64,000 bases of DNA. It comes from Onthophagus taurus. Lineage: Eukaryota; Arthropoda; Insecta; Coleoptera; Scarabaeidae. A program made the translations under genes and the position numbers. The first letter of the stretch is position 1; each line of letters opens with the position of its first letter. Shown piece after piece: positions 39,843 to 61,699 of this stretch. The notes beneath the pieces are model-generated. The model was not told the origin of the DNA. It did not search any database and was given only the letters and a program-made list of their open reading frames with translations. The stretch spans positions 25,489,501 to 25,553,500 of the forward strand of contig NC_091966.1 of NCBI RefSeq assembly GCF_036711975.1. The letters run 5' to 3'.

Positions 39843-40217
39843 TTTAGCATGTTTAATATATTTTTTGGGTTTTAATTTTATAACCTGTGCAAAGGAATAA
39901 ACATAACCTCAACTGTCATATTGAATACAGTGCTTTTATTTTAAGAGGAGTATAATTCTTTTATAAGAAGCGATTTAATTTCTATTTCGTTTTACAAATT
40001 GGTTAAAACTAAAACAGTTATAATAGATTATCAACTTATATTTTATAAAAATTATGCCAAGTATACCAAATGTCTTTAATACTTATTTAAAATTACGAGT
40101 AAATAATCACGTTTTTCTAGACGTCAGATATATTTTTAGTGAGGTTAATTCTTTGGACAAGTTAGAATTTAATAGACTTTAAATCGTTTATTTTCTAGCA
40201 ATAAAGAAAACTTAAAA
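39843..40217. promoter_or_regulatory. Shared COX11/mRpL42 upstream region
   Basis: The 375 bp between two divergent mitochondrial-protein genes. Both promoters must fit here unless noncoding exons lie elsewhere. No TATA box is evident. The pairing of two nuclear genes for mitochondrial proteins suggests shared regulation, but this is inference. Confidence 0.5.
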
Positions 40218-40565
40218 ATGTCTCTTTTAAGACAATGTGTGTTAAAGTACACCCTCAGTGTTCGATTAGGGTCTAGCTCGAGTAAGTTTGCAAAAACGGA
40301 TGATGGGAGTACCTTCGTTTTTTGGCATCCAAAAAAAGAATTTTCATACGAAAATACAAGACCTTTACCAGAAGTTAAAGCTGAAAGTTCCGGTGTTTTA
40401 AAGACAGAATTATCGCATCAATTAAAAGAGGTTTTTAATAAAAAATCGCCAGATATGGCAAGGGAAGAGCTAATGAGAATTACATATACGACTAAACATA
40501 AATGGTTTCCCAGGTCTCGAGATAGAAAAGCAAAGAAAACTCCAATGGATAGAGAATATTTATAA
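40218..40565 (+). CDS. mRpL42: Mitochondrial ribosomal protein mL42
   Basis: Component of the mitochondrial large ribosomal subunit (mL42, formerly also MRPS32). Single exon, 115 aa. An N-terminal arginine- and serine-containing presequence (about 1-22) is followed by the family blocks: TFVFWHPKKEFSYENTRPLP, a central LKTELSHQLKEV helix, and MRITYTTKHKWFPRSRDRK near the C-terminus. The human protein is 142 aa; the shorter length is usual for insects. An AATAAA at 40657-40662 ends the transcript, converging on HYPK with stop codons 132 bp apart. Confidence 0.93.
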   Translation: MSLLRQCVLKYTLSVRLGSSSSKFAKTDDGSTFVFWHPKKEFSYENTRPLPEVKAESSGVLKTELSHQLKEVFNKKSPDMAREELMRITYTTKHKWFPRSRDRKAKKTPMDREYL

Positions 40566-40697: not shown

Positions 40698-41051
40698 TTA
40701 ATCAGTTAATGCAATTAAAGCTTTCACAACGTTCCCATGATGTTCCCTTAAAGTTCTTTCGGCTCTTATCCTGGATATTTCCATTTCCCTAACAATTAAG
40801 TCAACATCTTCCTTTTTAATAGAAACTTTTAACAGTTCTTTCTCCCTTGCTTGTTTTTCAAGAGCTTCCTTATTTCTACGATCACCAATAGCTGATATAG
40901 CATCCGCAACGTCTTGCGTGGAAATTTCTTTTTCTTCGGCATAATCCGTAACCTTTTCTAAATCTGCCGCTCCACTGTCATATTTAGCACCTTTCTTTTG
41001 CGACTTTTCGGAATCCTCTGAATTACCATTTACGTTTTCCTCGTCTGCCAT
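40698..41051 (-). CDS. HYPK: HYPK, NatA-associated UBA-like protein
   Basis: Small chaperone-like partner of the NatA N-terminal acetyltransferase, binding Naa15/Naa10 near the ribosome. Single exon, 117 aa. The acidic N-terminus is followed by KYDSGAADLEKVTDYAEEKE (about 23-42), a helical AISAIGDRRNKEALEKQARE segment, and a C-terminal UBA-like domain (about 72-117: KVSIKKEDVDLIVREMEIS ... EHHGNVVKALIALTD). Every block matches the animal HYPK family. The AATAAA on the minus strand lies at 40685-40690, so the 3' UTR is very short. The gene tail faces mRpL42. Confidence 0.95.
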   Translation of the reverse strand: MADEENVNGNSEDSEKSQKKGAKYDSGAADLEKVTDYAEEKEISTQDVADAISAIGDRRNKEALEKQAREKELLKVSIKKEDVDLIVREMEISRIRAERTLREHHGNVVKALIALTD

Positions 41052-41557
41052 TTCAATTTATTAATTAGATAACTTGAATTGTTTTTAAATTTTGTTGGAT
41101 GATTATTTGATTGTGTGCTTTTCCTAACCTAACTTTATTTGGTGAATTTTTTCATTGTTACCAACTACTTTGATACTAAAAAAATATATTACACCGAATC
41201 GAGTTTGGTTTTATTTGAAATTAAGAAAGTAAACTTTCATTATTACTTTGTATACGTTTTACAATTTACTTTAAACATTTTTATTTAAAATATTTTTGCT
41301 AATGAAATTTAAAATCTGAATTTTTATTTTTTCGAAAATACAGCGTGTCCTGTAATAAACTTGGACTGGGAGACATGAAGTTAGTGCCCCATATTATTGG
41401 GAGACAACAACATCGTAACAACCACCCAGCAGCCCTTCGGAATTCTGCGGAGGTTTTTAATAATACCATAATTAGACTCGATTATTAATTCTCTTGAAGT
41501 TCGCTTTTCTGAAGAAACATCCTGTCATTTTCCTTATCTAAATTACACCCAGCTCAA

Positions 41558-42057: not shown

Positions 42058-42857
42058 AGAAGAATTTGTAGTTTCACAAGTTGTTAATGAAAAAAATAGG
42101 TATTCCAAGCATGACACAGAAAAACTTTTAGACTAAAAGTTATAGCAAATTTTATCCTTAACACATTGCTTGGTAACACTTTTGCTCTCAGAAGCATCAA
42201 TGTCGCAAAATATTCGAAAATATAAAAAATAGAAGAATTCATAGTTTTACAAGTTGCGAATGAAAAAAATCGGTATTCAGAGCATGATACAAAAAAACTT
42301 TTAGGACAAAAGTTGTAGCAAATTTTACCCTTTACACATTGCTGTGTAATACTTTTGCTCTCAGATACATCAATATAGAGAAATATTCGAAAACATGAAA
42401 ATTAGGAGAATTCGGAGTTTCACAAGTGGTTAATGGAAAACATTGGTATTCTAAGCAAGATCCAGAAAAACTTAACAAAAGGTGCACTGCTCTGTAACAC
42501 TTTTGCTCTCAGATGAATCAATGTAGAGAACTATTCGAAAATATGAAAATTAGAAGAATTCGTAGTTTTACAAGTTGCGAATGGAGAAAATCGGTATTCC
42601 GAGCATGATGCAGAAAAACTTTTGGAACAAAAGCTGTAGCAAATTTAGCCCTTAACACATTGCTTTGTTACACTTCTGCTCTCGATGCATCAATATCGGG
42701 AAATATTCGAAAATATGAAAATTAGGAGAATTCGTAGATTCACTAGTGGTTAATGGAAAAAATCGGTATTCCGAGCATGATACAGAAATACTTTTATATC
42801 AAAAGTTGTAGCAAATTTTACCCTAAACACATTGCTTAGTAACACTTTTGCTCTCAC
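42058..42857. repeat. 173-bp tandem satellite, about 4.7 units
   Basis: Unit starts (AGAAGAATTTGTAG, AGAAGAATTCATAG, AGGAGAATTCGGAG and so on) fall at 42058, 42231, 42404, 42552 and 42724; spacing is 173, 173, 148 and 172 bp. Each unit includes ATCGGTATTC, AAAAACTTTT, TAGCAAATTTTACCC and AACACTTTTGCTCTCA. The array ends abruptly where the transposon terminus (GAAGTGTCGGGACTGTCCC) begins. Confidence 0.85.
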
Positions 42858-43202
42858 AAGAGAAGTGTCGGGACTGTCCCTTACCGATTTTGTTGCAATT
42901 TGGTACAGCGATAGTATGGCCAAAAATAAGGTTTTTATATTTTTTTATGCGTGCTAATAAAGCCCCTGGGGCGAGTTATAAGGGTTGGAAATCGGGTCGA
43001 AAGATATATTCTTTTATAGCCTGAAGACGAACATAGCTATCGAAATGTGGTAAATGTAAACTGATATTCATTTTCAAAGAGCTTTCCATTGATATATCAC
43101 ACATATATCTGAGGGCTTCAGGGGGTAAACTACCCCTAGTTTTTTGGAATATTTTAAAAACTACCGTGTCGATTTTGGCGATATTAAGTATCCTTATAGT
43201 AA

Positions 43203-44336
43203 TAATAATAATAATAATAAATGACTTTATTGTCTCCATTACAAAGAAGAAACTACAATACAAATATATACATAATATATGGAGATCAAACGGCGGGATC
43301 CAGAATAGTCTGTTCTATCCAACCGTAAAAAAAAATTCTATGAATTATAACAAATAAAAAGAAAAAAAACAAAGGCAAAATCTTGAAATCATTAATACAG
43401 TATCACCAGCATCATATAAAATTTAAATTTAAACATAATTAAATTAAATGAAAGGGCCCAAAAGACCCAAACGTACATTAAATGAAAGAGAAAAAAAAGA
43501 AAGAAGAGGAGAAAAAAAAACAATAATAATGAAAATTAAAAAAGGACTCGGTGTAATAACTGATGGCGTAACTGTTAACATCGTAACAATGACTTTATAT
43601 CAATAAGAATAAGGTCAAAAAAAATCACAGAGAAACAAAGAAAAACAAACATCAGACAAGACCCGTTGACTGCTGAAAAATCATATTCCTCAATTTTCTT
43701 CGAAATTGACGTGGTCAGTTGACGTAGTCCATGTGGCAAGCTTCCATACGATTTATAAACATGACATGTAAATGACCTTTGAAAAAGTGATGTTCTATGT
43801 TTTGGAGGATAGAAACTAATACCTGACCTTGTCTGACTGCTTTCGCACAGTGGTTTATATTTAATTTTATTATGCAGGTACTCCGGGAGTCCAGAGGTAA
43901 CGATTCTATGATAGAGAGACAAACTATGAAACTCCCGTCGAGAGCTCATGTTCAGCCACCCAGCATCCTTAAGTTTATGAGAAATTCTATCAAATTTGTG
44001 AATCCCATAAATGAATCTGAGGCAACTATTCTGAACCTTTTATATACTTCGTGACGTGACTGCATCTATAGCCCTATGATATACAGCAGACATATAATTA
44101 AATTGTGAAAGAACAAACATATCACAGAGGAGCACTTTTAATTTCAAAGGTAAACATGAACGATGCGGGTACAACCGACATGGATAACTCAACAACAATT
44201 CAGTATGTGGGTCAAATATGGAAAAATGGTGGGGCAACACAGTTTGATCATCTCAATGGAAATTCCATCAGTACCAATAGCAGAAGATGTAATAGATGCA
44301 ATCACGTCAAAAACCAGAGGGATCTCCACAGTTAAT
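43203..44336 (-). mobile_element. 5'-truncated non-LTR retrotransposon insertion
   Basis: Minus-strand translation gives SQFNYMSAVYHRAIDAVTS (about 44140-44080) and, at 43949-43575, MSSRREFHSLSLYHRIVTSG with YLHNKIKYKPLCESSQTRSG and SYGSLPHGLRQLT. These are C-terminal non-LTR RT-protein blocks. The 3' end is a TTA repeat at 43203. The flanks carry TAGTA twice (43198-43202 and 44337-44341), and the uninterrupted site is present at 52078-52082. Only the 3' portion of the element was inserted. Confidence 0.85.
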
Positions 44337-45463
44337 TAGTACGTTTAAAAATATTAATTACGTGGTTTTTCTTATTTGCCTCTGACAATATCACCTGCAA
44401 CGTTATGGGGTATGATAGATAACCTCTTTCCTTAAGAATAATGTGATAAACTGTTACACATTTGAACAATATTTTGAAGAAAACCATAAATTAGTTGCAA
44501 ATTAAGATTTACGCAGTAAAATAAACTCTATAGGACATTTGGGGGTGGCTGGGATTAACTACCCTAACCACCCCAAACATTAATTTTTTTTGAGTAAATT
44601 GTCGATTTTGGTGCAATTTACCACGATGACTTTTTTATACGTTAGGTAGGACTTTTGAAAGAACTTACAAGGGTTAGGAGTTTGGGGTAGAAAATATATT
44701 TTCGCTAATAATTTTCAGAAAAACAGAAAAAGTTTTTTTATCCTTACTCTATTTAAATAACACAAAAGTTAGTGCAATTATATTAATATTTATTAATAAC
44801 GAGTTAAAAAGTAACTGGCAAATGGTTGACTACCAAAAATTGTATTCTACATTATTAATTTAATTTATTTTTTTTATTCAATGTATTGTTGGCAATAATG
44901 AAAATCATGGAAAAAATGTTTTAAACACAACCATTGTTTACACCATGCACAAGTTATAGCAGCTATATCTCCACAGATATACGCACGTACGTTTTTCATT
45001 GGAAAAGCAAACCGCCACGGAATTTTCAAACTGTTCTGGTTTCTCCTCTAAACAGGATGTTTCATAATGTATGCGCAGGACATCAGGATGTGATAGCTTG
45101 TCCAAAAATTTGAAAAATTGTTTCTTTCAACTTACTCTCTAAAATGCACCATTTTCGAGACACAGGGTGTTGAAATTTAATAAAAAAAAAATCGTTTTTT
45201 GCGAATATCTCTGGAACCGTTTATCGTACAGAAAATAGCTTTTGTAAACATTTTCTATTCATAATAAGCTAAGTTTTGTGGAAAAAGTACGGTTTTGAGA
45301 CGCCTATTTGAACCGTCAATGTTTTCTACACAAAAAAGGTACTGAAGGTCATGAGCTCTAAAGTTGACCGTTTTCGAGAAAAATCAACTTTTATGTTGAA
45401 TAACAAGGTCAATTTTTTTAAATAAAAATTTTATTTTACATTTAAAAAAAATTTACCAAAGCA

Positions 45464-46838
45464 GCAGCGTCTGTGAAGTTAGCACCTCATTTTTTTAAAA
45501 CTTCAAATTTCTCTTGAGTTCCCATTGCACCCCATTGAGTTCTATAGTTCTCTACCATTTTTATTAAAAGTTCCGCAAAAATAGGCAAAAACATCGATAT
45601 CGACTTTTTGGGGTGCTAAGTTCACAAAACGAGATCACAAAATTTGCAATAACTATTTAACGAATGCACGTATCGAAAAACTTTATTAAAATATCTTTTA
45701 GAACTCGTGAGGTGCTATTCAGAACTCCTGCCAGAACTCCCGGAACTTTTCAAAATTTTCACCCCTCCGGGACATTTACGAAATCTCAATGTGAACACTT
45801 TAAATTGGCACAGTTTCTTAAATATCAGTTTTACGGCTTCGGGCCTTAATCATTTTCGTTAGAACTCGTGAGGTGCTACCCAGAACTCCTATCAGAACTA
45901 CCGGAACTTTTCAAAATTTTCACCCCTCCGGGACATTTACGAAATCTCAATGTGAACACTTGAAATTGGCACAGTTTCTTAAATATTAGTTTTACGGCTT
46001 CGGGCCTTAATCATTTTCGTTAGAACTCGTGAGGTGCTACCCAGAACTCCTGCCAGAACTCCCGGAACTTTTCAAAATTTTCACCCCTCCGGGACATTTA
46101 CGAAATCTCAATGTGAACACTTGAAATCGCGCACAGTTTCTTAAATATTAGTTTTACGGCTTCGAGCCTTAATCATTTTCGTTAGAGCTCGTGAGGTGCT
46201 ACCTAGAACTCCTATCAGAACTCCCGGAACTTTTCAAAATTTTCACCCCTCCGGGGCATTCACGAAATCTCAATGTGAACACTTGAAATCGCGCACAGTT
46301 TCTTAAATATTAGTTTTACGGCTTCGGGCCTTAATCATTTTCGTTAGAACTCGTGAGGTGCTACCCAGAACTCCTATTTCTTAAATGTTAATCTTTAGAT
46401 TGTCAATGATAGATGAAAATAAACCGAAACATTTAAGAAATTTAAGAAATAGGAGTTCTGGGTAGCACCTCACTAGTTCTAACGAAAATGATTAAGGCCC
46501 GAAGCCGTAAAACTAATATTTAAGAAACTGTGCGCAATTTCAAGTGTTCACATTGAGATTTCGTAAATGTCCCGGAGGGATGAAAATTTTGAAAAGTTCC
46601 GGGAGTTCTGGCAGGAGTTCTGAATAGCACCTCACGAGTTCTAAAAGATATTTTAATAAAGTTTTTAGATACGTGCATTCGTTTAATAGTTATTGCAAAT
46701 TTTGTGATCTCGTTTTGTGAACTTAGCACCCCAAAAAGTCGATATCGATGGTAGAGAACTATAGAACTCAATGGGGTGCAATGGGAACTCAAGAAAAATT
46801 TGAAGTTTTAAAAAAATGAGGTGCTAACTTCACAGACG
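45464..46838. mobile_element. Hairpin (foldback/MULE-like) element, 1.38 kb
   Basis: Terminal CGTCTGTGAAGTTAGCACCT at 45468 is mirrored by AGGTGCTAACTTCACAGACG ending at 46838. Arms extend inward about 0.4 kb to a loop near 46375-46460. The left arm is expanded by 161-162-bp tandem units starting at 45701, 45862, 46023, 46185 and 46347 (GAACTCGTGAGGTGCTA); the right arm has one unit. TACCAAAGCA is duplicated on both sides (45454-45463, 46839-46848), a 9-10-bp duplication that suits MULE-type insertion. The empty site is visible at about 54320-54335. No transposase. Confidence 0.8.
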
Positions 46839-47057
46839 TACCAAAGCAAGCGTTAACTTCATAATTGCAATATAAAAAAAAAGAAAAAATAATACAAAAG
46901 TTGTCTTTTCAAAATTCTCCAAACCGCAAAGGTAACGCATTTCGCACATTTCAGCGTTTGTGTAAAAACTGTATAATTTATTTTTAACAAGTAGGCTTTA
47001 AATTTTATAATAAAAGCTAACTCCTGTCAAAATAACAATTAGTTAGCAAAAAATACT

Positions 47058-48250
47058 TGATGATTTTTGAGATACAACACAAAGTTGTATTTTTTTAAAT
47101 ACAAACTATACTTGATTATGATGTTAATGAAAAGAGCATATTTTTAGCTTTCCAATTATGTATCGCATGTATGGTGTATTTGCGGAAAATAAGCGTTCAT
47201 TTTCAATTCCAAAATAGTAAGCGCTAACGTTCAAAATTTTGATTATAGTAGGCGCGTTCGGACAGTATTGCTATATGTTTTTGCACGAATATGACAGAAA
47301 GTTGGTCTTCTACCATTATGCAGGATAAAGTTGGTTTTGTACCAACGAATAAAAACTTTGAATACTTAATTTCAATTTCTCAGTGTCTTATCCCTGAGTT
47401 TGTTCACCAATAAAAAATGATTTGTAGATAAAGTTTGTTTATTAAAAATACAAGAAACGTATTAATTAATGAATAATTAAATATGAACAACAACTTCAGG
47501 AACTAAACCGTCACAGACTGTCATCTTCTTCTACTAAACTTACTGGTTGTAAGGTTAGAACAGTTTGGTATCAATGAATGAAATCTTCGGTAGTATCTTC
47601 CCAGTTTTCCTCAACCATGAGATTTAGAAGTCTTTTTATATTAGCAACCTTTTCTTTTGAAATTGGGTGAGATAGAGGGAGATTAGGGATCATAAACTGG
47701 GCAGCGGACTTTCCATTGAAACGATGTTTATATGGGATATGGAGCCTTCTCTATCATTTTCAAAGAATCATTTTTTAATTTTATCGCTTTATGTATTTAA
47801 AGATAATGAGGAATTTTTAAGCGGGAATCTCGTTTCGAAAAATTCATGAATGAAATGATCAGTAAACTCACGTTACTATAGTAGCTAAGTGACATTTATC
47901 GTTTTCCTCGCCTACTGTAATTAAAATTTTGAATTTTAATCTTTAACATTTTAAAATTAAAAAATAACGCTCATTTTCCCCAAATATATCATGCGTGCAA
48001 TATCATTGGACAGCTAAAAATATGCTTTTTTCAGTAACACCATAATCTACTATAGTTTGTTAAACTAAAATTAGAACTAAAACTAGAACTACTAAACTCC
48101 TTTCGAACCAGTTTCTGAAGAAGGTTCCAACATGGCATCCCAAACGTCAAACCTTTTATTAAAAGACGCACGGCAAAACCCGAGTTAGTTTGTATTTAAA
48201 AAAATACAACTTTGTGTTGAATCTCAAAAATCATCAAATATTTTTAAAAT
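47058..48250. mobile_element. Inverted-repeat element interrupted by a Penelope-like fragment
   Basis: The sequence TTGATGATTTTTGAGATACA with AAGTTGTATTTTTTTAAATAC (about 47058-47105) is mirrored at 48196-48250. Further inner matches are GCATATTTTTAGCTTTCCAAT against TGGACAGCTAAAAATATGC. The right arm is broken at about 48060-48187 by a Penelope-tail segment containing CTGAAGA, CATGGCATCC and CAAACGTC. No coding capacity is seen. Confidence 0.55.
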
Positions 48251-49301
48251 TTTTCAACGGCAGTATATTCTACTTAAAAAAGTGTCTTAAGAACGTATCA
48301 ACCCCATTTCTCTAATTTCAAAAATAAACGAAATATGAGCATTTTTTGAAATCACGAAAATTTGACTTTTTGGCTATAAGTTAAAAACAAAGGAAGATAG
48401 AGGTTTGGTGTTTGCGGAATTGGGTTAGTCTCGAAAAAAGAGACCGGGACATGACACCTACTTTTTTCGTATCTCTTATAGTTTCTGAGATAGCCTATAA
48501 CGTTAACGACATGCCTAAATCTTTTGACAAATGGCGGCAACTTACATGAGGATTAACATCTACAGCTGCTTAAACAGCTATTTGATTCTGTTCATTCGTA
48601 ACCGATCTTGCACGTGTTCGTTTTTTTTCCTCCACGTTACCACATTCCAGATATTTTGTAACTATTCTATATAAAGTTTTAGGACAAGGCGCTCTTTCTC
48701 AGCGAAATTTTCACGACTTTCACCGTAAGCTAACACCATCTGAATGTTCTGAGGAGTACAGAAGTGCTCTATTTTTGCTTTGATAACAATGGTTTTTTCG
48801 CTTGAAATTTTTATCCTACGTGCAAGTTAGCGCACATCCCAAGAAGGTTTAGAACAGGATTTACTCGATTTATAAACATTAAAAAAAAAAAAATTATAAT
48901 CAATTTTCTAAGACGATTTCAAAAGTTAAGAAGAATTTTAATATTATTTTACGATTAATTAAATCGTTTTTTTTTATTAATTATATTTTCAAACATGTTA
49001 TTTTATGTTTGTTGATATCTTCAGAACGAAGAGTTTAAGAAAAAGTAATCAGTTTGTCAAGTTGTTGACTTTGAAAGAAAAAAGTATACCTATGTGCCAT
49101 TTGAAAAAATAAAAATGACGTCAGAAGGGCCTTTAGGCAACCCTGAACAAAATTCTGTTCATGTGTACAATTGTGCCCCTTCTCACCAAAAAATGTTTAC
49201 TTGAAAATTTTTTCGATTCGAGTTTTTATTTTTGAGATATAGGCATATGTTATTTTAAATGAAACAACCGGTATATCTTTCGGCCCGATTTCCAACCCTT
49301 A

Positions 49302-50095
49302 TAACTCGCCCCAGGGGTTTTATTAGCACGTATAAAAAAATACGTAAACCTTATTTTTGGCCATACTATCGCTGTACCAAATTGCAACAAAATCGGTGAG
49401 GGACAGTTCCGACACTTCCCTTGTGAGTGAAAGTTAAGTTTACGCAGCGAACGTGTTAAGGTTCGAAAGGTATTTCCTCTCTTGACTTACATTTCATAAA
49501 TTATTAACCATTCGCAAATTTTGTAACTACCTGTATGAGTAAAATAAAATAAACAGCAAAATTAAAACTGTCAATTTTAATTAAAATTGAAACCAAAATA
49601 AAATTTTAGGGCGATAAATTTATTTATTAAAATTAAAAGTAACCGCATTTACATAAGTTTATTTAATTAAATGTTCATAAATTAGAACACATAAAAATTG
49701 TAGCTACAGTTAACTAGAGTTGACTGACGAATGGTAAGAGGGTGGTTTGAGACCCAGCTTAGATGTGTCCAGAGAAACTTCCTCCATCAATTTGGTCATC
49801 CCATTTTTCCACCCAAGCATTAGGACAGAGCGCTTCATACATTTTCTTGAAATAGTTGCACGGCGCGTAACCCTGGCCCTTGACTTTCTGGCAACGATGA
49901 AAATCCAAGTAACTTTGATAGCAATACCTCGTTTGGTTTGTATTTGGGAACCGTGGGTCGAATGGGGCCGTCGATACGGTACCTTCAGAAAGCATTGCAG
50001 CTGGCATGTCTGAAACCAATAAAAAATAAACAATGAGAATCAAAGAGTGGGTTTTAAAATAAGTTATTTTTTGTGTTTTTGTGGAGATGACTTTC
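49302..50095. repeat. Direct duplication unit, copy A (with COX6B exon)
   Basis: About 790 bp repeated in the same orientation at 56750-57537. It starts inside the pogo-like element terminus (ACTCGCCCC), includes GGGACAGTTCCGACACTTCC, and runs through the COX6B 3' UTR and last exon to the intron sequence GGAGATGACTTTCT. Identity is high throughout, with a few substitutions and small gaps. It abuts the MULE transposase region. Confidence 0.85.
49759..50009 (-). CDS. COX6B: COX6B last exon, duplicate copy A
   Basis: Encodes residues from MPAAMLSEGTV through the C-terminal FSGHI. It is the entire twin-CX9C-type COX6B domain: TAPFDPRFPNTNQTRYC, YLDFHRC (first pair CX9C), APCNYFKKMYEALC (second pair CX10C), PNAWVEKWDDQ. 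The splice acceptor TTTCAG precedes it at 50010-50011. It differs from copy B at four bases in 251; three are silent and one changes Asn to Ser near the end. No first exon lies between it and copy B, so to be expressed it would have to be spliced from the exon-1 copies 9-11 kb away, or start at its internal ATG. It may be functional, alternative or a fossil. Confidence 0.7.
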
Positions 50096-50164
50096 TTCTG
50101 AGAAAAACGCGTTCAACGTTTTTGGTAAAGAAAAATAGTGTGGAAACTTACGATTAATAAAAGC

Positions 50165-51821
50165 TTAGTCTGCGATGCCAGAGCCGTATAAAAGACCTTC
50201 CTCTTCTGCAAACTCATCCATTCTAACGGATAATTTTTTTTTTCGAGTTGTCCTTGCCTCTTTTGATGTCCTTTGGGTGCGGCGGTCCTGTCTGTCCACG
50301 CGGTGTTTGTCGTACGCGTCAGCGAATTGCAGTTGCATATCATTCATAACTTCTAAAATGAATGTATAGCCATCGTTGAACATACTTCCGGCCAAATAAG
50401 CAGCAATGTGTATAATTTTGAGCCACAGTTTAGATGCTTAGGGGCCAACGCCACAGTGTAGCATTAAAGGATTCATTTACGTTCTGGGTGTAGCCACCCA
50501 AGCATCTCTGAAGTAAGTCATCCCGAGACAAGTCCTCATATATCGGCAATATGTGCTTGGCCACTGCAGGATGTAATGGAGGAGTATGAGTATAAGCCTC
50601 TGCTGCATTCTGGGATTCGGCCCAGAATGCAACGCCCTGAGAACAGAAGTGATGCTGCGATTCCATGTCGGTTGAAATTAAATGGTAATACGTAGCCATA
50701 ATTGCTTTTTTCATTTCATCCACTGAATCGACATTTTTTCGAATAGCCAGGCCATAATAATTTGTCAGCTGTTTTATAAGGCGTCCGTAAGTTTCCCCTT
50801 ACCTCCAAGTTTTGCAGTTTTTTTTAAGTTTCGCAGTCGGCTGCCCATGCGTTTCCCCACATGCCCAATGCATTTTCGCTTTGTCACCTGAAAATCGTCA
50901 CCGTAAGGCATTGTATCTACAATAGCCTTGAAAGTCTTGGCGTCGCCGTCGCTTACGTAATTACTGTATCGCACTCCATATCGTTCCTCAGATTTCTGAA
51001 ATATTTCAAGCATATCATCGACTTCCATCTTGCCAAAAGAGCCATGATGATTTATTGGACAATTTTCTTGGTGCTCTACGTATGCCGAATCGTTCGCGTC
51101 TCGTTGTTTATAATACGTGCATGCTTGGCAGTAGCTGCTTTTAACAACGAGATCTATTACTTTTCCTGTGTGATAAGCTATCAGTGTAATTACACCATAC
51201 AGAGAAGTAAATCCACGCTTTTTCCAAGAAACGTCACCGCTAACGGTTAAAACAGATCTCTTATTTTCTTCATTTAATTTTATTTCACTTTGTATAGCGC
51301 TTTTGCAACATAAATCAAAAACCTTTTTGGTAGACTCATATATATGCTGCACTATGCCTTCGTATGATTTTTTGCTCAGTCCTTGTCTCAAATCCATTAT
51401 GCCACAAAAAATGTTTATTCCTTCTCGAGCTACTCCCAGTAGTCTCATAGCGAAAATAACTCTTCGATTTATTTCAAAACTATTGTGAATAAATGGTCCT
51501 GACTCTATTTACACATATTTTAAATTCTCTCTCCTGATTGTCCGAATGATAATTTTTGCTTACATCTTCTACAAACAGCTATGTCAGAAATAGCAGAAAA
51601 GACGGTCACAAATTCTATAATCCAAAGTAGCAAAAACCGTAATTCACAACGACGTCGGACACCAACGCTTTCAATTTTTTTGCTGAAGCACTTGCTTCGG
51701 AACAACTCGGTACCTCTTCCTTTTCAGGGTTTTGTACGTTTGTATATTGATTGCCACCGTATCGCCGACGACGTGGACGGCTTGAACGATAATTGGGTTC
51801 ACTTTTCCACTCATTTTTCAA
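50165..51821 (-). pseudogene. MULE transposase (insect Mutator-like), frameshifted
   Basis: The minus-strand reading starts near 51821 (GNQYTNVQNPEKEE, SASAKKLKAL). A 224-codon open core spans 51448-50774, with VSGDVSWKKRGFTSLYGV (first Asp), SSYCQACTYYK...ENCPINHHGSFGKMEVD, NYVSDGDAKTF (second Asp) and CIGHVGKRMGSRLRNL. The next block (50723-50430) has LPIYEDLSRDDLLQRCLGG and QNVNESFNATLW (Glu), and the tail ends about 50165. All three catalytic residues are visible but frames shift at about 50750, 50410 and 51540-51620. It matches the Mutator-like transposase family common in insects. Terminal repeats were not identified. Confidence 0.85.
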
Positions 51822-52289
51822 ATATAAAGCGCAACAACGATGTGAATATAAAAATCGACAATGCCTCTCAGTTGAAATGTAAAGCGCGCATAACTCTCGT
51901 ATATATACGTGCGGAGCGCGTTACTGAGCATCAAACAAGTTTTATTACCTTAAAATCATGAATATTATGATGTACAGATGTTAAATGAATTGTCTAACTA
52001 AAAAAAAAGGAAAAAAAATGACCATTTACTTGGCCCCCCTCTTTTAAACGGACTATAAGTATCCTTATAGTACGTTTAAAAATATTAATTATGTGTTTTT
52101 TCTTATTTGCCTCTGACCATCCCCTGAATAATGTGATAAACTATTACACTTTTGAACATTATTCTATAGGACATTTAGGGGTGGCTGGGGTTAACTATCC
52201 TAACCACATCAAAAATTAATCTTTTTTGCGAAAATTGTTTGTCTATTTTGGTGCAATTTACCACGATGATTTTTTTATACATTAGGTAG

Positions 52290-54979
52290 TACAATGTTCA
52301 AAGCAGATAACATATTCGTCTTGGCTTCAAAGTCTGGTTAACTGACTTCTGCTCATATGAAAAATTGGCTACAAAATGTCTATTTCCTAAACACCGGAAC
52401 CAAATCATTACTATTACTGGATTGTTTGAGTGGCCACTGCCCTGAAATTATTAGTGAAGTAACTCCATCCAATGTTAAGTTTAAACATTTGTCTATACCT
52501 GCAGGGACAACAGGTCAAATTCAACCCCTGGATGTATTTGGGTTTAGAATATGGAAAAAATTCATTAGAAGATTTTCTGATCAAGTTATTCTCTACCAGT
52601 ACGATATCAATATGCATCAGCGAGATAATATTTTAAAATTGTAATCCCTAACGCATAACCAGTTGTCTTCCCCACGATTTATTAATGTTTTTAAATACGC
52701 GTGGTTTGCATCTGCATGTACAGGTATTTCATAATATATGCGCAGGACTTCAGGATGTGATGACTTGTCCAAAAATTTGTAAAAAAGTTTCTATCAACTT
52801 ACCCTCTAAAATGCACCATGTTCGAGATACAGGGTGTTGAAATTAAAAAATAAAATCGTTTTTTGCGAATATCTCTGGAACCGTTTATCGTACAGAAAAC
52901 AGCTTTTGTAAGCATCTACTCATAATAAGCAAAGTTTTGTGCGAGAAAAATTTTTTTAAAGTCATAATTGGTGAAGATTTTGAAGGGATAGTGATTGTTT
53001 TTCTCCCCAACTTCTACGCCACTGGAAAAAGTACGGTTTTGAGACACCCATTTGAACCGCCAATGTTTTCTACACAAAAAACGTACTGATGGTCATGAGC
53101 TCTAAAGTTGACCGTTTTCGAGAAAAATCAACTTTTATGTTGAATAACAAGGTCAATTTTTGCGAGTATCTCCGGAACCGTTTATCGTACAGAAAACAGT
53201 GTTTGTAAGCATTTTGTACATGTAATAAACTAAGTTTTGTGCCAGAAAAAATTTATGTAATCGTTAGAACAAGTAACAAAAGCAAGCGTTAACTTCACAA
53301 TTGCAAAATAAAAAAAATGATACAAAAGTTGTCTTTTCAAAATTCTCCAAACCGTAAAGGCAACGCATTTCGCACATTTCAAGTAATTAAAATTAAATTA
53401 AATTTTATAACAAATTTGTACAACACATTTCAGCGGTTGTGCAAAAAAATGAATAATTTATTTTTAACAAGTAGGCTTTAAATATTATAACAAAAGCTAC
53501 CTCTTGTCAAAATAACAATTGGTTTGTACCTGCAAAAAGTAAACTTGTATTACAAAATTAAAAATGAATTACACAAACGCTTAAATGTGCGAAATACATT
53601 ACCTTTACGGAATAGCGTGCGGTAATTCGGCAGAATCAAGGCGGTTGTAGCAAGAAAGATAACCTGATCGCCCAGTACCACACCATAACTTGTTTCTACG
53701 AATTTATCAACGACTATGGGAAAATAGAAGTTTTAAAAGGAATACTGCTGATAATGGGCGGTCTATGGAAATTGCAAATCCCCAAGTAGAAGAGACTGTC
53801 CTCAACTAAATTGATGAAAATCCGACCACATGTACCAGAAAAGTTGCTCACAACTTAAACCTATCTCACTCGACGGTTTGGAGAATTTTGAAAAGGCAAC
53901 TTTTGCGTCCCTACCGTATCCAAAGAGTACAAGCGTAATTGTCAAAAGATTTTTCGAAAGATTTTAGATGCAAGACAAAATAGCTCTGAGTTTGGAGCCG
54001 AAGTTCTGTTTACCGATAAAGCATCTTTCTCGAAAGATGGTATTTTCAATTTTCACAATAACCATATATGGACAGAAGAAAATCCACATGGAATTGCAGA
54101 AGGTCATCATCAGCAACAATTTTCCATAAATGTTTGGCATCGCATTTAACTGTGTATGATTTGTAATTGTTTTTTTTTTAATTATGCAATTATGAAGTTA
54201 ACGTTTGCTTTTGTTACTTGTTCTAACGTTTTAGTACAACAAAATTTTTATTTCAAATAATTGACCATGTATTATTTTTCTTTTTTTTATATTGCAATTA
54301 TGAAGTTAACGCTTGCTTTGGTAAATTTTTTTTAATTGTAAAATAAAATTTTTATTTAAAAAAATTGACCTTGTTATTCAACATAAAAGTTGATTTTTCT
54401 CGAAAACGGTCAACTTTAGAGCTCATGACCATCAGTACGTTTTTTGTGTAGAAAACATTGGCGGTTCGAATGGGTGTCTCAAAACCGTACTTTTTCCAGT
54501 GGCGTAGAAGTTGGGGAGAAAAACAATCACTATCCCTTCAAAATCTTCACCAATTATGACTTTAAAAAAATTTTTCTCGCACAAAACTTTGCTTATTATG
54601 AGTAGATGCTTACAAAAGCTGTTTTCTGTACGATAAACGGTTCCAGAGATATTCGCAAAAAACGATTTTATTTTTTAATTTCAACACCCTGTATCTCGAA
54701 AATGGTGCATTTTAGAGGGTAAGTTGATAGAAACTATTTTTCAAATTTTTGGACATGCTATCACATCCTGAAGTCCTGCGCATATATTATGAAACACACT
54801 GTATAGAGGAGAGACCAGAACAGTTTGAAAATTCCGTGGCGGTTTGCTTTTCCAATGAAAAACCTACGTGCGATATCTGTGGAGATATAGCTGTTATAAC
54901 TTGTGCATGGTGTAAACAATCGTTGTGTTTAAAACAGTTTTTCCATGATTTTCATTATTTCCAGCAATACATTGAATAA
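52290..54979 (+). pseudogene. DDE_1 (pogo-like) transposase, split by a mariner element
   Basis: First part (52290-52720): FKADNIFVLASKSG, an in-frame stop, then LTSAHMKNWLQNVYFL, LLLLDCLSGHCPEI (catalytic Asp), IPAGTTGQIQPLDVFGF (third catalytic position as Asp), and a C-terminal KYAWFASAC. Second part (54804-54979): EERPEQFENSVAVCF, then CDICGDIAVITCAWCKQSLC, a CX2C..CX2C zinc-binding tail, ending at TAA. The reading frame joins exactly across the insertion if one TA is removed. The N-terminal DNA-binding part is missing. Dead copy. Confidence 0.75.
52721..54801 (+). mobile_element. Mariner-like element with long terminal inverted repeats
   Basis: The left terminus CAGGTATTTCATAATATATG (52721) and the right terminus ending TATGAAACACACTG (54801) are inverted repeats continuing for about 450 bp or more with high similarity (GCGCAGGACTTCAGGATGTG; AACCGTTTATCGTACAG). 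TA flanks both sides. Length 2081 bp. Inside on plus, about 53620-54150, are PDRPVPHHNLFLRIYQRLW, NPTTCTRKVAHNLNLSHSTV with WRILKR, and VLFTDKASFSKDGIFNFHNN with FSINVWH: a mariner-like transposase of the HTH/DUF4817 class. It has stops, a frameshift and the Glu of the usual FTDE box changed to Lys. Inactive. Confidence 0.8.
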
Positions 54980-55470
54980 AAAAAGAAATTAAATTAATAA
55001 TGTAGAATACAATTTGTGATAGTCAACCATTCTTTTGTCAGTTACTTTTTAATTCGTTATTAATAAAGATTTATATAATTACACTAACTTTTGTGTTATT
55101 TAAATAGAGTAAGGATAAAAAAACTTTTTCTGTAGGAGTATGAAAATTATTAGTGAAAATATATTTTCTACTCCATACTTCTAACCCTTGTAAGTTCTTT
55201 CAAAAGTATCATCGTGGTAAATTGTAAAAAAAATTAATTTTTGGGGTGGTTAGGGTAGTTAACCCCAGCCGCCCCCAAATGTCCTATAGAGTTTATTTTA
55301 CTGCGTAGATCTTAATTTGTAACTAATTTATGGTTTTCTTCAAAATATTGTTCAAAATTGTAACCGTTTAGCCAGAGGCGGCGCTACCGGGGGGTGCAAG
55401 GGGTGCACTGCACCTAAAAGGGGGCACCGGCGCCTTTTTAATGTTTTCTCCAACAATATCTTATCTTTCT

Positions 55471-56040
55471 TTTGCAGTATCTAGACCTGTCAGCAGTAGC
55501 TAGTCTTCAGAAAGCAGTATTTAGTCTCCACAAAGCAATTTTAGTCTTTAGAAAGCAGTATTTACTGTTCCAGACGCTGTATTTAGACCGGTCGGCAGTA
55601 TCTAGTCTTCAGAAAGCAGTATCTAGTCTTCTGCCAAAGTTATGTTTGTTTTCTCCAAAATATTTCATCTTTCTTTTACAGTATTTAGACCTGTTAGCAC
55701 TATCTAGTCTTCAGAAAGCAGTATTTAGTCTCCACAAAGCAATTTTAGTCTTTAGAAGGCAGTATTTAGTGTTCCAGGCGCTGTATTTAGACCTGTCGGA
55801 AGTATCTAGTTTTCGGAAAGCAGTATTTAGTCTTCTAGAAGCAGTATCTAGTCTTCTGCCAACGTTATGTATGTTTTCTCCAACAATATCTTATCTTTCT
55901 TTTGCAGTACTTAGACCTGTCAGCAGTATCTAGTCTTCAGAAAGCAGTATTTAATCTTCCAGAGCAGTATCTAGTCTTCAGAAAGCAGTATTTAGTTTTT
56001 TAGAAGCAGTATCTAGTCTTCTGCCAACGTTATGTATGTT
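55471..56040. repeat. Nested tandem repeat (about 205-226-bp units of about 20-bp motifs)
   Basis: Motifs such as AGTCTTCAGAAAGCAGTAT and CAGTATTTAGACCTGTC recur many times. Larger units begin with TTTTCTCCA..AT.TC.TCTTTCTTTT.CAGTA near 55471, 55675 and 55901. One frame stays open from 55472 to 55933 and would encode a repetitive peptide (SLQKAVFSLHKAILVF), but the composition is repeat-driven and no promoter or homologue is seen. It lies in the replaced segment of the pogo-like element; the segment begins GCCAGAGGCGGCGCTACCGG, which resembles a hAT terminus. Confidence 0.8.
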
Positions 56041-56749
56041 TTGTTCTTGATACTGACAGCTATTTCTTTCTGGGTGTCTATCATCATCTTTTTGGGAGCC
56101 TCTTATTATCTATACTTTAGCTGTTACTTTGCTTTTGTGCTTATCCTGCATTGGCAAAGTTTCCGTATTGGTGATTTCCTGTTCTGTGCAATAACAAGAC
56201 AAGTCCATTGGTTTCTTGTTCATATTCTTCGCATTCGTTTATGGAACACATAAGTATTGCCATGAAAAATCATGTTTGGTTTATAATCAATTTTTTGTTT
56301 TCTCTGAACAGTAATTTCAGACTTCATGTGGACTTTGAACAATGTAATTCCTGTTTTTTGCTGAAGTCTAGTTTATAACTATTGCAATTTCAGACTTTTT
56401 CTTGCAAATTAACCTTCTGACCAGAGTATTCCCGACTATTCCCTTAAGTTTGGTTTTTCACCAGTATAATTCTTAAATTTTTGCTGAAGTATGGATTATG
56501 AAAGGGGTTATCTATCATAACATTGCAGGGGATGGTCAGAGGCAAATAACATAAACACGTAATTAATATTCGCCAAAATCGACACGGTAGTTTTTAAAAT
56601 ATTCCAAAAAACTAGGGGTAGTTTACCCCCTGAAGCCTTCAGATAAATGTGTGATATATCAATGGAAAGCTCTTTGAAAATGAATATCAGTTTACATTTA
56701 CTATTTCTGTAGCTATTTTCGTCTTGAGGCTATAAGCGAATATATATAT

Positions 56750-57537
56750 ATAACTCGCCCCAAGTGCTATTAGCAGATATAAAAAAATACGTAAACCTTA
56801 TTTTTGGCCATACTATTGCTGTATCAAATTGTAACAAAATCGGTGAGGGACAGTTCCGACACTTCCCTTGTGAGTGAAAGTTAAGTTTACGCAGCAAACG
56901 TGTTACAGTTTGAAATGTATTTCCTCTCTTGATTTACATGTCATAAATTATTAACACATTTTGTAAATACCTGTATGAGTAAAATAAAATAAACAGCAAA
57001 ATTAAAACTGTCAATTTTAATTAAAATTGAAACCAAAATAAAATTTTAGGGCGATAAATTTATTTATTAAAATTAAAAGTAACCGTATTTACATAAGTTT
57101 ATTTAATTAAATGTTCATAAATTAGAACACATAAAAATTGTAGCTACAGTTAACTAGAGTTGACTGACGAATGGTAAGAGGGTGGTTTGAGACCCAGCTT
57201 AGATGTGTCCAGAGAAATTTCCTCCATCAATTTGATCATCCCATTTTTCCACCCAAGCATTAGGGCAGAGCGCTTCATACATTTTCTTGAAATAGTTGCA
57301 CGGCGCGTAACCCTGACCCTTGACTTTCTGGCAACGATGAAAATCCAAGTAACTTTGATAGCAATACCTCGTTTGGTTTGTATTTGGGAACCGTGGGTCG
57401 AATGGGGCCGTCGATACGGTACCTTCAGAAAGCATTGCAGCTGGCATGTCTGAAACCAATTAAAAAATAAACAATGAAAATCAAAGAGTGGGTTTTAAAA
57501 TAAGTTAATTTTTGTGTTTTTGTGGAGATGACTTTCT
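56750..57537. repeat. Direct duplication unit, copy B (with COX6B exon)
   Basis: Partner of 49302-50095 in the same orientation. It ends at the same intron sequence GGAGATGACTTTCT, after which the two copies diverge: a T-rich stretch leading to the TRIR-like gene here, the MULE region there. Confidence 0.85.
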
Positions 57538-59328
57538 AATTTTTTTTTTTTATTTTTTACCTATTTAGTTAACTGAGATAAGTCCAAAAATTATATAAAT
57601 TATTAAAGTTTTTTATTAATTATTTAACTAGCGGTCTTGTTTTCGAATCATCATCACAACAAGCTTCTTTATAGCGTTTAACTTCCTTCAAATAAATCGA
57701 CCAAGGGTCTTGCGGTTCAACTCCAAGTTCATCATCGCCCTGTTTACTTTTAGCAACCATTCCGGTTTTAAGTACTCTCCCGCCTCTTCGTTTACCAAAC
57801 ATTGGTTTTTTCATTTCACCTCCAGTTGCTGGTGTCTCAATCTTAGAAGCTTCAGCCTTTTGTTGTTGCTCTTCTTGCATTTTTTTATATAATTCCAAAA
57901 ATGAACCATCGTTTTTAAATGCATTTTTATTTTCAGCATCGTTATCATCGTCGTCTACATCTTTATTCTCATCTCTATCGGAATAATCATTCTTATTAGA
58001 ATGTGGTGATCTAGAATAAGATTTTCTAGAAGTTTTTGAATAGTGATGTTTCCTTGACCTTGATCTAGATCTGGAATGTTTACGGGATCTTGAATGAGAT
58101 CTCTTTCGCTTTTTCTCTTTATGCTTGTGTCGACTACTCCTATCTCTGGAAATACTTCGACTCACTGATCTACTCTTGTGTCTGTAATGACCCCTTGATC
58201 TACTACGCGATTTTCTATGCTTCTTTCTGCTACGACTGCGACGTCTCCTTGATTTTTCTCTAGATCTCGAATGAGATCTATGTGATCTATCGTACGATCG
58301 GCTCCGAGATCGACGGCGATAACTGTGTCGATCTCTGTATTTTTGTTCAACCATGATTTTATCGCGATCGGAAACCTTGTCAGGTTCGTACTTTGGAACT
58401 TCTTGGATGTCTTCTAAACCAGGCGGTGGTGGATCATTCCAGAATCCCACCGTCGACGCCGACGATGGATTCATCTCACTGTAGTGTAGTAATAATGTGC
58501 GCAACCTACAAGAGAACTTGCAGGTATAATTAACTGAATCAGGAGCTGTGATACATTCTAAGATATCATCTTGAGACTGCAGTTTTAATAAAAGTATTAT
58601 ATTTTTAATTAAAAATAACTGGATCTATGAAGGGGGTCCATGATTATTGGCGTTATTTTAATTGGTGTATGTGTGTGGAACGTGCGTTAGGTAATCAAGA
58701 GGTACTCTTGATTGATAGAATCGACGAAAAAATCGGATGTTTCATATTGGTTAACGTGAAATTAATCGCAATAAAACTTAAATACGACTAGCGATGTGGT
58801 AAACAAGTTTTATGTGAGTACGTAAAGTAATACCTGAGATTTTCCTCTTTTTATCAGATCTACAAGATGGCCACCAATCTATTAACACAACTGGCAGAAC
58901 GTTTTTGCTTCTTGACAACCTAAAAACTCCTCGTGTATCGATCGAGTTTAGTTATTCTTTGGTTACTCACTCACAGATGGCGCAGCAATAATTCAATTAA
59001 TTTTAATCTATAAAGTCATTTGGGTTGTTTAGTTATTTTTTCTAATAAATTCAATAAAGAAATACTGAACAATACCATATAAATGATTGTTTATAATATT
59101 GTAAATCTATGTTTGAATGTTTAATTTAGAAGAGCAAAATGGGTTGTCTAACTTTCAGTTATAAATGTTTAAAATTTGTAAATTTCTTAAAAATTTTGGA
59201 AATATCTTTGGCGTTAATTATGTTTATTATTCTCTCTTACCATTTTGAATTTCTTCAGTTATTTCTATTTCTACTTCGCTAATTACTTCAGGAGGAATTT
59301 CCTCAACGACTTCAACTGACGCAGCCAT
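57199..59328 (-). CDS. COX6B: Cytochrome c oxidase subunit 6B (proposed two-exon gene)
   Basis: Nuclear subunit on the intermembrane-space face of complex IV. Proposed exons: 59328-59241 (88 nt, MAASVEVVEEIPPEVISEV and acidic residues to about 29) and 57449-57199 (251 nt). The donor ATG|GTAAGA and acceptor TTTCAG|AC join in phase 1 to give Asp-Met-Pro-Ala, total 112 aa. The second exon holds the full domain: TAPFDPRFPNTNQTRYC, FHRC, APCNYFKKMYEALC, PNAWVEKWDDQ; CX9C and CX10C pairs are intact. The exon 2 identity is firm. The exon 1 assignment rests on phase, orientation and parallel duplication. If right, the 1.8 kb intron contains the whole TRIR-like gene on the same strand. An alternative is that exon 2 is translated from its own ATG at 57447. 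Confidence 0.75.
57620..58474 (-). CDS. TRIR-like (C19orf43 family) RS-rich nuclear protein
   Basis: Single coding exon, 284 aa, start chosen at the ATG of MNPSSASTVGFWNDPPPPGL; upstream codons in frame lack another ATG and a possible splice acceptor (TTCTCTTGTAG) lies at about 58505. Residues about 45-165 are an arginine/serine-rich domain (RS and SR repeats, several RSRSRS runs) typical of nuclear speckle proteins. After an acidic stretch, FLELYKKMQEEQQQKAEA leads to the conserved tail KRRGGRVLKTGMVAK (228 onward), then DPWSIYLKEVKRYK and DDDSKTRPLVK at the terminus. That tail matches telomerase RNA component interacting RNase (TRIR). The vertebrate protein lacks such a long RS domain, so the function of the insect protein is not assured. 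AATAAA at 57612-57617. Confidence 0.85.
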   Translation of the reverse strand: MNPSSASTVGFWNDPPPPGLEDIQEVPKYEPDKVSDRDKIMVEQKYRDRHSYRRRSRSRSYDRSHRSHSRSREKSRRRRSRSRKKHRKSRSRSRGHYRHKSRSVSRSISRDRSSRHKHKEKKRKRSHSRSRKHSRSRSRSRKHHYSKTSRKSYSRSPHSNKNDYSDRDENKDVDDDDNDAENKNAFKNDGSFLELYKKMQEEQQQKAEASKIETPATGGEMKKPMFGKRRGGRVLKTGMVAKSKQGDDELGVEPQDPWSIYLKEVKRYKEACCDDDSKTRPLVK

Positions 59329-59432
59329 TGTACTAAGCTTAACTTAATTAAGAAATGTATCCAGTTTATGTATTAAAACGCTGGAAGTTCAAATCATTAC
59401 ATTGTTGTAATTTGTAATTTTTAACGTACTAT
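59095..59432. repeat. Exon-1 duplication unit, copy 1
   Basis: About 335 bp repeated in the same orientation at 61217-61545: TATTGTAAATCTATGTTTGA, GAGCAAAATGGGTTGTCTAA, the coding exon and its 5' flank (AAGCTTAACTTAATTAAGAAA, AACGCTGGAAGTTCAAATCA). The copies are separated by a MITE relative and a tandem array. Confidence 0.85.
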
Positions 59433-60606
59433 ATTTTATTAGTCTACCCGAAAGGAAATTTAATTCTCTACAAATTATCTATAAACATTCCGAAAAGCCA
59501 TGCCATTTTGACAGTTTTTCGTTTAATTTATTTCTATTATTTGTACTATTAACTACGATTGATAATCTTTTAATTTACTAGCTTTTGTTTACCAAAAATT
59601 ACAAACAGAAGATTAAATAAATGAAAGAACGAAAACAAAAAACTGATGACAAAAATTAAATTTGGATAAAAAATATGAATTTATAATATAAATTTTTTAT
59701 TAAATATAATTTGGATATGCAATAAAATATGATAAAATATTTATTATATTTATTTTGTTTCTTTTGGTCTCGATATATCTGCAATAAGAAAATCTTTATC
59801 AATTTTTTTGAATTTTTTCTTTGTGATGCCATTAATACAAAATGAATTTTAAATATCGACGTTATAATAATTTACCATGATGTTCAATGACTTACACATG
59901 CCGTCAAATGTAACTAATGACAACAATAATACAAACATGAACCAAAAACTGTCAAAATTCCACGGCTTTCTTAATAAAAAAATCTGCATGCCGTACATGT
60001 TTTGATAAATTTAACAATATGACGGAAACTACAATAAATAGGTATAGGATTGCTTATAGATTACTTGTAGAGAATTAAATTCCCTTTCTGATGTTCTAAA
60101 AAAATAAGGGGCGTTCCATTTAAAATTTTCTATTTTCTCGCCATTGAATGTGGAGAAACAGTAATTCAATTTTTAACCAGCCTGTATAAGATACTTTGAT
60201 AAAACAAATGACAATCTATTTGACAATATCTGAAGAGTAATCGTGCCAATCTAGAACTCTTTTGAATGAACGTTGGCTGACATATAGGGTTTTAAAGAGC
60301 ATGGTGAAATTTGCCAAGAAGAACTAAAAATGAAAATAACTCGAAAACGAAAAACGTTAGGTATCAATAAGTTTTACGAAAGTCAACATATTTTTTGACG
60401 TATTATTAAAAGGTGTAATAAAAACTATAGCATGTCAATTAAATTAGCCAAATTTAAGTCTACTTCTGGTAGACCGGAAGTGACAGCCATCTCGAAAATA
60501 GTTTAGATCGAAAGTTCCAAATAAAGAACCCATGCTACCAACATTTTAAAACTGTACGAATAGTGGAAACTAAAAAAGTTCTAACGAACCAGTTACGTGA
60601 GACACC
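59432..60606 (-). mobile_element. Second copy of the 18.0-kb MITE, one end missing
   Basis: Reverse-orientation relative of 18000-18970. The right end reads CGAACCAGTTACGTGAGACA at about 60580-60604; internal matches include AAGTTCTAACGAACC, GAACGTTGGCTGAC, TAGACCGGAAGTGACAG and TTTATTAGTCTACCCGAAAG. The opposite terminus is missing at the join with the exon-1 duplication. Confidence 0.7.
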
Positions 60607-60619
60607 TATATGTACTACA

Positions 60620-61200
60620 TATATAAAATAAATACTAACCAAAAATGTTACTGTAGTACAAAATTAGTACATAAATAGCACAAAATTATGGCTGATATCT
60701 TAAAAGGGGGTGTAACTGGACATTCTGCTACCACCCACCACTTTCATATACATAAAAAATATACTAAATGATTAGTATGTACAAAATTTTTTAATGTAGT
60801 ACAAAATTAGTACATAAATAGCACTATCAAAATGTTGATATCTTAAAAGGGGTGTGTAATTGAACGGCCAGCTACATCCCCTCCTTTGATATATGTATAT
60901 AAAAACAGGATTAGATGATTAGCACAAAAATTTTTAATGTAGCATACAATTTGCATATGAATAGTACAAAATTATGGCACTATCAAAATGCTGATATCTT
61001 GAAAGGGGGCTTGTATATGGAGGGGGGGGGGTGTAACTAGACGTTCAGCTACACCCCACACTTTGACATATATAAAAAAAAATACTAAATGATTAGTACA
61101 AAAATTTTTAATGTAGTACAAAATTAGTACATAAATAGTACGTAAATATAGTAGCATCAAAATGCTGATATCTTGAAAGGGGGGTGTAGCTGTATGGACC
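60620..61200. repeat. Tandem array, about 145-175-bp units, about 4 copies
   Basis: GCTGATATCTT(A/G)AAAGGGG occurs at 60691, 60834, 60990 and 61164. Each unit includes GTAGTACAAAATTAGTACAT, a GGGGTGTAACT block, CAGCTACA.CCC and CATATATAAAAA. Unit length varies and one unit contains a run of nine G. It lies between the two COX6B exon-1 copies. Confidence 0.75.
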
Positions 61201-61360
61201 TTAATTAAACATATTCATAATATTGTAAATCTATGTTTGAATGTTTAATTTAGAAGAGCAAAATGGGTTGTCTAACTTTCAGTTATAAATGTTTAAAATT
61301 TGTACATTTTTTAAAAATTTTGAAAATATCTTACTCGTTATGTTTATTATTCTCTCTTAC

Positions 61361-61448
61361 TACTTTGAATTTCTTCAATTATTTCTATTCCTACTTCGCT
61401 AATTACTTCAGGAGGAATTTCCTCAACCACTTCAACTGACGCAGCCAT
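61361..61448 (-). pseudogene. Duplicate of proposed COX6B exon 1
   Basis: Same 88-nt length as 59241-59328 with ATG (61448) and a GTAAGA donor retained. Five substitutions; one is silent and the others change Glu to Gly, Thr to Ile, Asn to Ser and the split codon. It could still splice in phase to either exon 2 copy, so it is either an alternative first exon or a decaying duplicate. Confidence 0.55.
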
Positions 61449-61699
61449 TGTACTAAGCTTAACTTAATTAAGAAATTTATCCAGTTTATGTATTAAAACG
61501 CTGGAAGTTCAAATCATTACATTGTTGTAATTTGTAATGTTTTTATTAGCTTCTTATCGTTTGTATTTATTTATTTACAACCGAGTTCACTTGAGTTATG
61601 AATTCTTTATATACAGTGTGTTAATTAATTATCGTACCCATATACAGAGTGTCTCACCGACACCGATCATTAGACGTTTCTGGGGTTCTGGCCAAAATA

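Follow-up and report, generated by a model that had tools for sequence, protein, structure and literature searches.

How can a small gene come to carry two copies of each of its end exons while the gene that lies between them stays single? The question is posed by a COX6B locus on the minus strand of a 64-kb stretch of the Onthophagus taurus genome (C1:25489501-25553500, hereafter the window). Here two copies of the exon encoding the COX6B domain (exons 2a and 2b) and two copies of a predicted first exon (exons 1a and 1b) are arranged, along forward coordinates, in the order 2-2-1-1. As Table 1 shows, a complete gene resembling TRIR, on the COX6B strand, separates exon 2b from exon 1a, and the gaps between the copies, 1.8 kb for exon 1 and 6.7 kb for exon 2, are both largely mobile DNA. 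We consider it probable that two local duplications within the gene, in transposon-rich DNA, gave rise to this arrangement, with the gene most likely using exon 1a or 1b together with exon 2b and keeping exon 2a as a spare. Whole-genome searches cover the 33 contigs (290.8 Mb) of the genome; match counts are given as scored/candidates, queries with higher numbers of candidates having been scored at 40 places.

The exon pairs and their predicted protein

A preliminary description of the locus had placed all four exons exactly, to the base and on the minus strand, but overlooked the nested gene, the mobile elements of both gaps and the probably larger extent of the exon 2 duplication. Directly 3' of exon 1 both copies have GTAAGAGAG, a donor in phase 1, and the exon 1 ATG stands in the context GTACAATGG. 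Exons 2a and 2b alike have TTTCAG ahead of ACATG, the acceptor of 2b differing by one extra base. The expectation that either exon 1 could be spliced to either exon 2 holds good, in that the joins 1a-2a, 1a-2b, 1b-2a and 1b-2b are each 339 nt long and open, encoding 112 residues. PF02297 is the sole Pfam match of the 1a-2a protein, at residues 48-102 (78.3 bits; cut-off 26), and in the genome family scan exons 2a and 2b each exceed the curated cut-off of that family. Both also encode CYQSYLDFHRC and CNYFKKMYEALC, the CX9C-CX10C cysteine pattern expected of COX6B, and both have poly(A)-type signals, ATTAAA, AATAAA and ATTAAA, at 92, 131 and 178 nt past the stop codon. Among solved COX6B/Cox12 chains there are 21 distinct matches to the predicted protein (best E 2.3e-27, residues 42-111), just two of which reach into the part encoded by exon 1, namely 7jro_g (from residue 25) and 9f5x_2H (from residue 4).

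Whether exon 1 is a coding exon was assessed with a codon score, trained in turn on 1067, 1351 and 1149 codons. With all three sets, both copies score above 162/162 open, ATG-started stretches of 29 codons drawn from presumed non-coding parts of the window. The score is nevertheless a weak and crude guide, because exon 2, which is surely coding, reaches just -0.036, -0.036 and 0.057 on the scale on which exon 1 reaches 0.28 to 0.35. Six start-to-donor candidates (an ATG, an open frame of at least 60 nt and GTAAG or GTGAG) are present on the minus strand between 57450 and 64000. Scored with a training set containing one out-of-frame segment, exons 1a and 1b were positive, as were two candidates inside the nested gene, and the other two were negative. 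That exon 1 is a chance open frame is unlikely. Its frame fits exon 2 and not the TRIR-like gene; that exon 1 opens the coding sequence of the latter, tried with one candidate acceptor, was rejected, both copies being out of frame and stopping after 40 residues.

The locus is most likely the main COX6B gene of the genome. The closest other COX6B found, at C11:14616834, is identical at 37/66 residues (56%). It reads as a short coding first exon, ATGGCTGATGCCGAG, before GT and a single domain exon. By our own reading of this unannotated gene, its intron lies 13 residues ahead of DPRFPN, compared with 17 at the present locus, and we count the two-exon layout in favour of the interpretation given above. 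The remaining family match, at C11:20819358, we take to resemble COA6. In Drosophila, according to the accessible part of PMC3959817, COX6B is listed as ubiquitous, the two subunits said to depart from single-copy coding do not include it, and knocking it down even partially is lethal. Given this lethality, and with the one other close COX6B found only 56% identical, the present locus is expected to yield at least one functional message.

Duplication units, nested gene and mobile DNA

The alignable parts of the two exon 2 units, ~0.8 kb long, are 95.7% identical, and the two exon 1 units, of ~0.3 kb, are 94.6% identical. Genome-wide, the exon 1 unit as query gives 2/2 matches. The exon 2 unit gives its own two copies and 38 further short matches (40/804), all to its first ~130-140 bp, which are the end of a dispersed transposon, B; the 140 bp from 49421 onward again give 2/2. 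With the transposon end set aside, each unit is found with one partner in the genome, a pairing beyond chance. The locus is a case of tandem exon duplication, with homologous exons adjacent to one another and no copy of the whole gene, the membership of exon 1 being predicted.

Tandem duplication of a whole gene would give the order 2-1-2-1 with everything between doubled. The order found is 2-2-1-1, and the earlier claim that it does not stem from such an event is borne out and further strengthened by the uncopied nested gene. A genome scan with the latter gives two matches, itself and a weak RS-rich hit (E 3.4e-4), and found no second copy; that it is single-copy is the strongest argument against whole-gene tandem duplication. 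Whole-gene duplication followed by deletions was rejected as well, since deletions alone cannot, we reason, turn 2-1-2-1 into 2-2-1-1, and since the nested gene lacks a second copy. A Pfam search of the nested gene's protein gave no family, and we presume its relationship to TRIR from the C-terminal block NDGSFLELYKKM...GKRRGGRVLKTG...DPWSIYLKEVKRYK...DDDSKTRPLVK. Candidate splice sites of its 5' untranslated region (UTR) are an acceptor, with the exon from 58505, and a donor at 58833.

Could the copies instead be unmerged haplotypes, laid side by side in the assembly? The exon 1 unit differs by 2-6% according to the part considered, a level that alleles of some very heterozygous animals reach. 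However, long reads (whose use is assumed from the 33 contigs) far exceed the 0.3 and 0.8 kb of the units, the flanks of the copies differ, the exon 2 flank diverges by 6-9%, and the gene between the copies is not doubled. The window moreover contains zero N and lies in one contig of 44.2 Mb. We regard an artefact as very improbable.

Near 49428, left of exon 2a, transposon B ends in ...CCCTTGTGAG, and the junction of this end with the unique flank is identical in both exon 2 copies, so that B had inserted before exon 2 was duplicated. Nested within B is another element, D. A 321-bp probe over the D-in-B junction matches at full length at 2/40 scored places (585 candidates), 54640-54960 and 44894-45217 (94%), the remaining 38/40 matching a single side and reaching no more than ~12 bp into the other. 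Since, among the places scored, only these two local ones have the full-length junction, B copies 1 and 2 are probably duplicates of a single composite. The exon 2 duplication, to judge from the sequence, probably spanned ~5.5 kb (52056-57537), transposon included, and not just the 0.8 kb that can still be aligned. As a rival explanation, a composite B/D element may have moved twice instead of being copied with exon 2, but this leaves the shared unique flank unexplained. In 8/8 other B loci examined, a stretch like 52056-52130 is joined to an outer repeat of ~310-340 bp, which is missing left of 52056; around B copy 1, no intact target-site repeats were seen by eye. The inverted ends of element D (52724-53161 and 54360-54797) are 438 bp long and 98% complementary.

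Further mobile DNA fills the gaps. Between the exon 2 copies is a Mutator-like remnant, and no DNA elsewhere in the genome matches the sequence 50097-50300. Outside this locus, the remnant has its best copy (L018, C1:25427387-25428786; 81%) ~110 kb off on the same contig. The exon 1 copies are separated by element C, one inverted arm of which is just 69 bp long here and ends exactly where exon 1 unit a ends. The arm-spacer border of this element was inspected in 11 loci (L042-L052) and is crossed at four places in three of them. At three of the four places the sequence goes on as an inverted arm several hundred bases long; ours stops at 59423.

From these features we infer an order of events and a mechanism. 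The ancestral gene would have consisted, 5' to 3' on the minus strand, of exon 1, an intron with the complete TRIR-like gene, and exon 2. One local duplication, far smaller than the gene, would have copied exon 1 within ~0.3 kb, and another exon 2 together with the adjoining transposon, over at least the 0.8 kb still alignable and probably the full ~5.5 kb. Repair or replication errors amid broken mobile elements would be the likely cause, and further insertions would later have pushed the copies apart.

Separate duplication of each exon, as the preliminary description proposed, is the simplest reading, although the two pairs are alike in divergence. The exon 1 unit and the exon 2 left flank show no difference (Fisher p 0.13), so the two duplications cannot be ordered in time, and one complex event, by replication with template switching or chained break repair, could have produced both exon copies. 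Like divergence would suit such an event, as would the position of both pairs within 12 kb and the incomplete mobile elements found between the copies each time. No link was found between the two sets of junctions, however, and two independent duplications are simpler; we allow the single event only a slim chance.

Several points weigh against the two-duplication account with exon 1 as the first exon of COX6B. Predicted exon 1 could be leader sequence or part of another gene; in particular, it may be a 5' leader of the TRIR-like gene. An in-frame ATG begins at the third base of exon 2, which would by itself encode a COX6B of the usual length, 82 residues. The TRIR-like stop codon lies 171 nt ahead of exon 2b, with AATAAA immediately after it and once more beyond, so a COX6B transcript started at exon 1 must read through poly(A) signals belonging to that gene. 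At the remaining crossing of the element C border, in L042, the element halts at the same base as here, and 59423 may therefore be a natural or preferred end of element C, not a duplication break. The Mutator-like remnant at the exon 2 junction is without a counterpart near B copy 1. Finally, the interior of B copy 1 is opposite to that of copy 2, which needs an extra inversion; recombination between the terminal repeats of B may account for this.

Divergence and use of the exons

The exon 2 copies differ at 4/251 positions and the exon 1 copies at 5/88, while substitutions number 14/329 over the exon 1 unit, 17/231 in the part of the exon 2 unit at 49300-49530 and 48/791 in the longest B/D stretch. 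All tests of selection and divergence rest on few changes, and their p values are uncorrected. Within the coding part of exon 2, three changes are synonymous (3/48.7 sites) and one alters an amino acid (1/197.3 sites; p 0.026), which hints that purifying selection has acted on the two copies alike. Exon 1 with its junction codon has one synonymous and four amino-acid changes and shows no sign of constraint (p 1.0). The last exon thus looks constrained or gene-converted and the first exon does not.

Gene conversion in place of selection may be what keeps the two last exons alike, a possibility, compatible with the other readings, to which we give somewhat less than even weight. Divergence breaks near 49528, with 19/228 changes to the left and 8/569 to the right, indels counted, a contrast reached by 0/2000 permutations (scanned every third position, the real data every position). 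The 3' UTR and flank of exon 2 differ at 1/228, below the synonymous rate of 3/49 (p 0.018). On the other hand, the synonymous changes of exon 2 (3/48.7) agree more closely with the rate in the flank than with a homogenised tract (P 0.02 at 1.2%), and a constrained, transcribed last exon or 3' UTR would give the same pattern. The 87 bp of intron beside exon 2 have two substitutions, not clearly different from the left flank (p 0.11).

On the reading we prefer, a transcript would start at exon 1a or 1b, be spliced over the TRIR-like gene to exon 2b and end there, exon 2b being the first acceptor reached and having poly(A) signals of its own. For the same two reasons exon 2a may be little used; 7.4 kb further on and behind mobile DNA, it would serve as a spare last exon only when 2b was skipped. 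The locus may still have alternative first and last exons, as was originally proposed, which the splice sites and the hint of constraint on exon 2 permit. In its full form this would be a working two-by-two gene, with a promoter for each first exon, both last exons in use and up to four messages or protein variants, made for example in different tissues. The intact splice sites and frames, the three poly(A)-type signals of both exon 2 copies, the excess of synonymous change in exon 2 and the four residue differences, with one silent change, between the exon 1 copies would all agree with it. Yet the changed residues fall in an acidic stretch and at a single position close to the C-terminus, the exon 1 changes show no constraint, the sequence common to both copies upstream of the exon 1 ATG is only 94 bp, exon 2b should take splicing before 2a, and the constraint test depends on four changes. 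We consider such a gene unlikely. Also distinctly unlikely, in our estimate, is a two-by-two gene that arose by separate duplication of each end exon around the untouched nested gene, its last exons kept working by selection and its first exons free to diverge, with different acidic N-terminal tails as the result. The N-terminal tails of COX6B lie, we presume, on the cytochrome c docking side of the enzyme.

Elsewhere in the window, a tyrosine-kinase-like frame of 400 open codons lies at 19187-20389 (plus strand), in which SH2 and kinase regions are presumed by eye. Open frames at 39345-39908 (minus), 40176-40565 (plus) and 40698-41057 (minus) resemble, we assume, COX11, a mitochondrial protein and HYPK, respectively. 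Another respiratory gene is perhaps present near COX6B.

Table 1. Exons, nested gene, duplication units and mobile elements of the COX6B locus (window coordinates)
Feature	Position	Strand	Evidence or remarks
COX6B exon 2a (distal; domain exon including stop codon)	49759..50009	-	PF02297 above cut-off; acceptor TTTCAG then ACATG
COX6B exon 2b (proximal copy)	57199..57449	-	Genome family scan; splice site and frame
Predicted first exon 1a, 88 nt, MAASVEVVEEIPPEVISEVEIEITEEIQN, phase 1 donor	59241..59328	-	Frame, coding score
Predicted first exon 1b, 88 nt, 5 nt differences from 1a	61361..61448	-	Frame, coding score
TRIR-like RS-rich gene, 284 aa, coding part in a single open frame, in COX6B intron	57620..58474	-	Genome scan; no Pfam match
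Exon 2 unit, copy a (alignable part)	49300..50096		Pairs with 56749-57537
Exon 2 unit, copy b (alignable part)	56749..57537		Pairs with 49300-50096
Exon 1 unit, copy a	59090..59422		Pairs with 61214-61542
Exon 1 unit, copy b	61214..61542		Pairs with 59090-59422
Transposon B copy 1	42853..49428		Interrupted by other repeats; interior inverted relative to copy 2; nested D junction common to both
Element A near right end of transposon B copy 1	~48503-49281		One of the interrupting repeats
Transposon B copy 2	52056..56879		Ends ...CCCTTGTGAG beside exon 2b flank; left outer terminal repeat missing; DDE_1 fragment 52342-52644
Element D nested in transposon B copy 2	52715-54798		Other repeats also inside B copy 2
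Mutator-like remnant between exon 2 copies	50165..52036	-	PF20700, E 4.1e-49, frame 50774-51508
Element C between exon 1 copies	59423..61213		Many copies elsewhere (40 scored of 1405 candidates)

Parallels in other genes

Tandem exon duplication is already well described, but separate copying of both ends of a small gene around a nested gene seems less usual. A literature search found no such COX6B gene, a weak negative since most subscription journals lay outside its reach. The locus offers a clean natural case in which the two ends of a gene were copied without its middle, and so sets the copying of exons apart from that of genes. Should the spare exons be in use, a core subunit would have gained variants without gene duplication.

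Initial or terminal exons that are mutually exclusive and arose by tandem duplication are documented in the accessible part of Ivanov and Pervouchine (2022, PMC9013439), with nine initial exons in hydra, eight terminal exon clusters in pip and thirteen first exons in UGT1A. As at those loci, homologous first or last exons have been copied here inside one gene, each of them joinable to the rest. The difference is that a gene of two exons has here been doubled at both ends, with an uncopied gene between, and that the COX6B case is known from sequence alone. In hydra of Drosophila, the same part of that paper describes seven initial exons flanked by DINE-1, and first-exon copies adjoin mobile elements in the beetle too. 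These are, however, a DDE_1-coding transposon, a Mutator-like remnant and an inverted-arm repeat, and the last exon is involved as well. A further parallel is provided by tandem duplications with insertions from break repair, reported in rice with insertions of 10-1000 bp (Vaughn and Bennetzen 2014, as cited in the accessible part of PMC7407515). They share with our locus the layout of unit, inserted DNA and unit, but the gaps described here are, at 1.8 and 6.7 kb, longer, and transposon B predates the duplication of exon 2.

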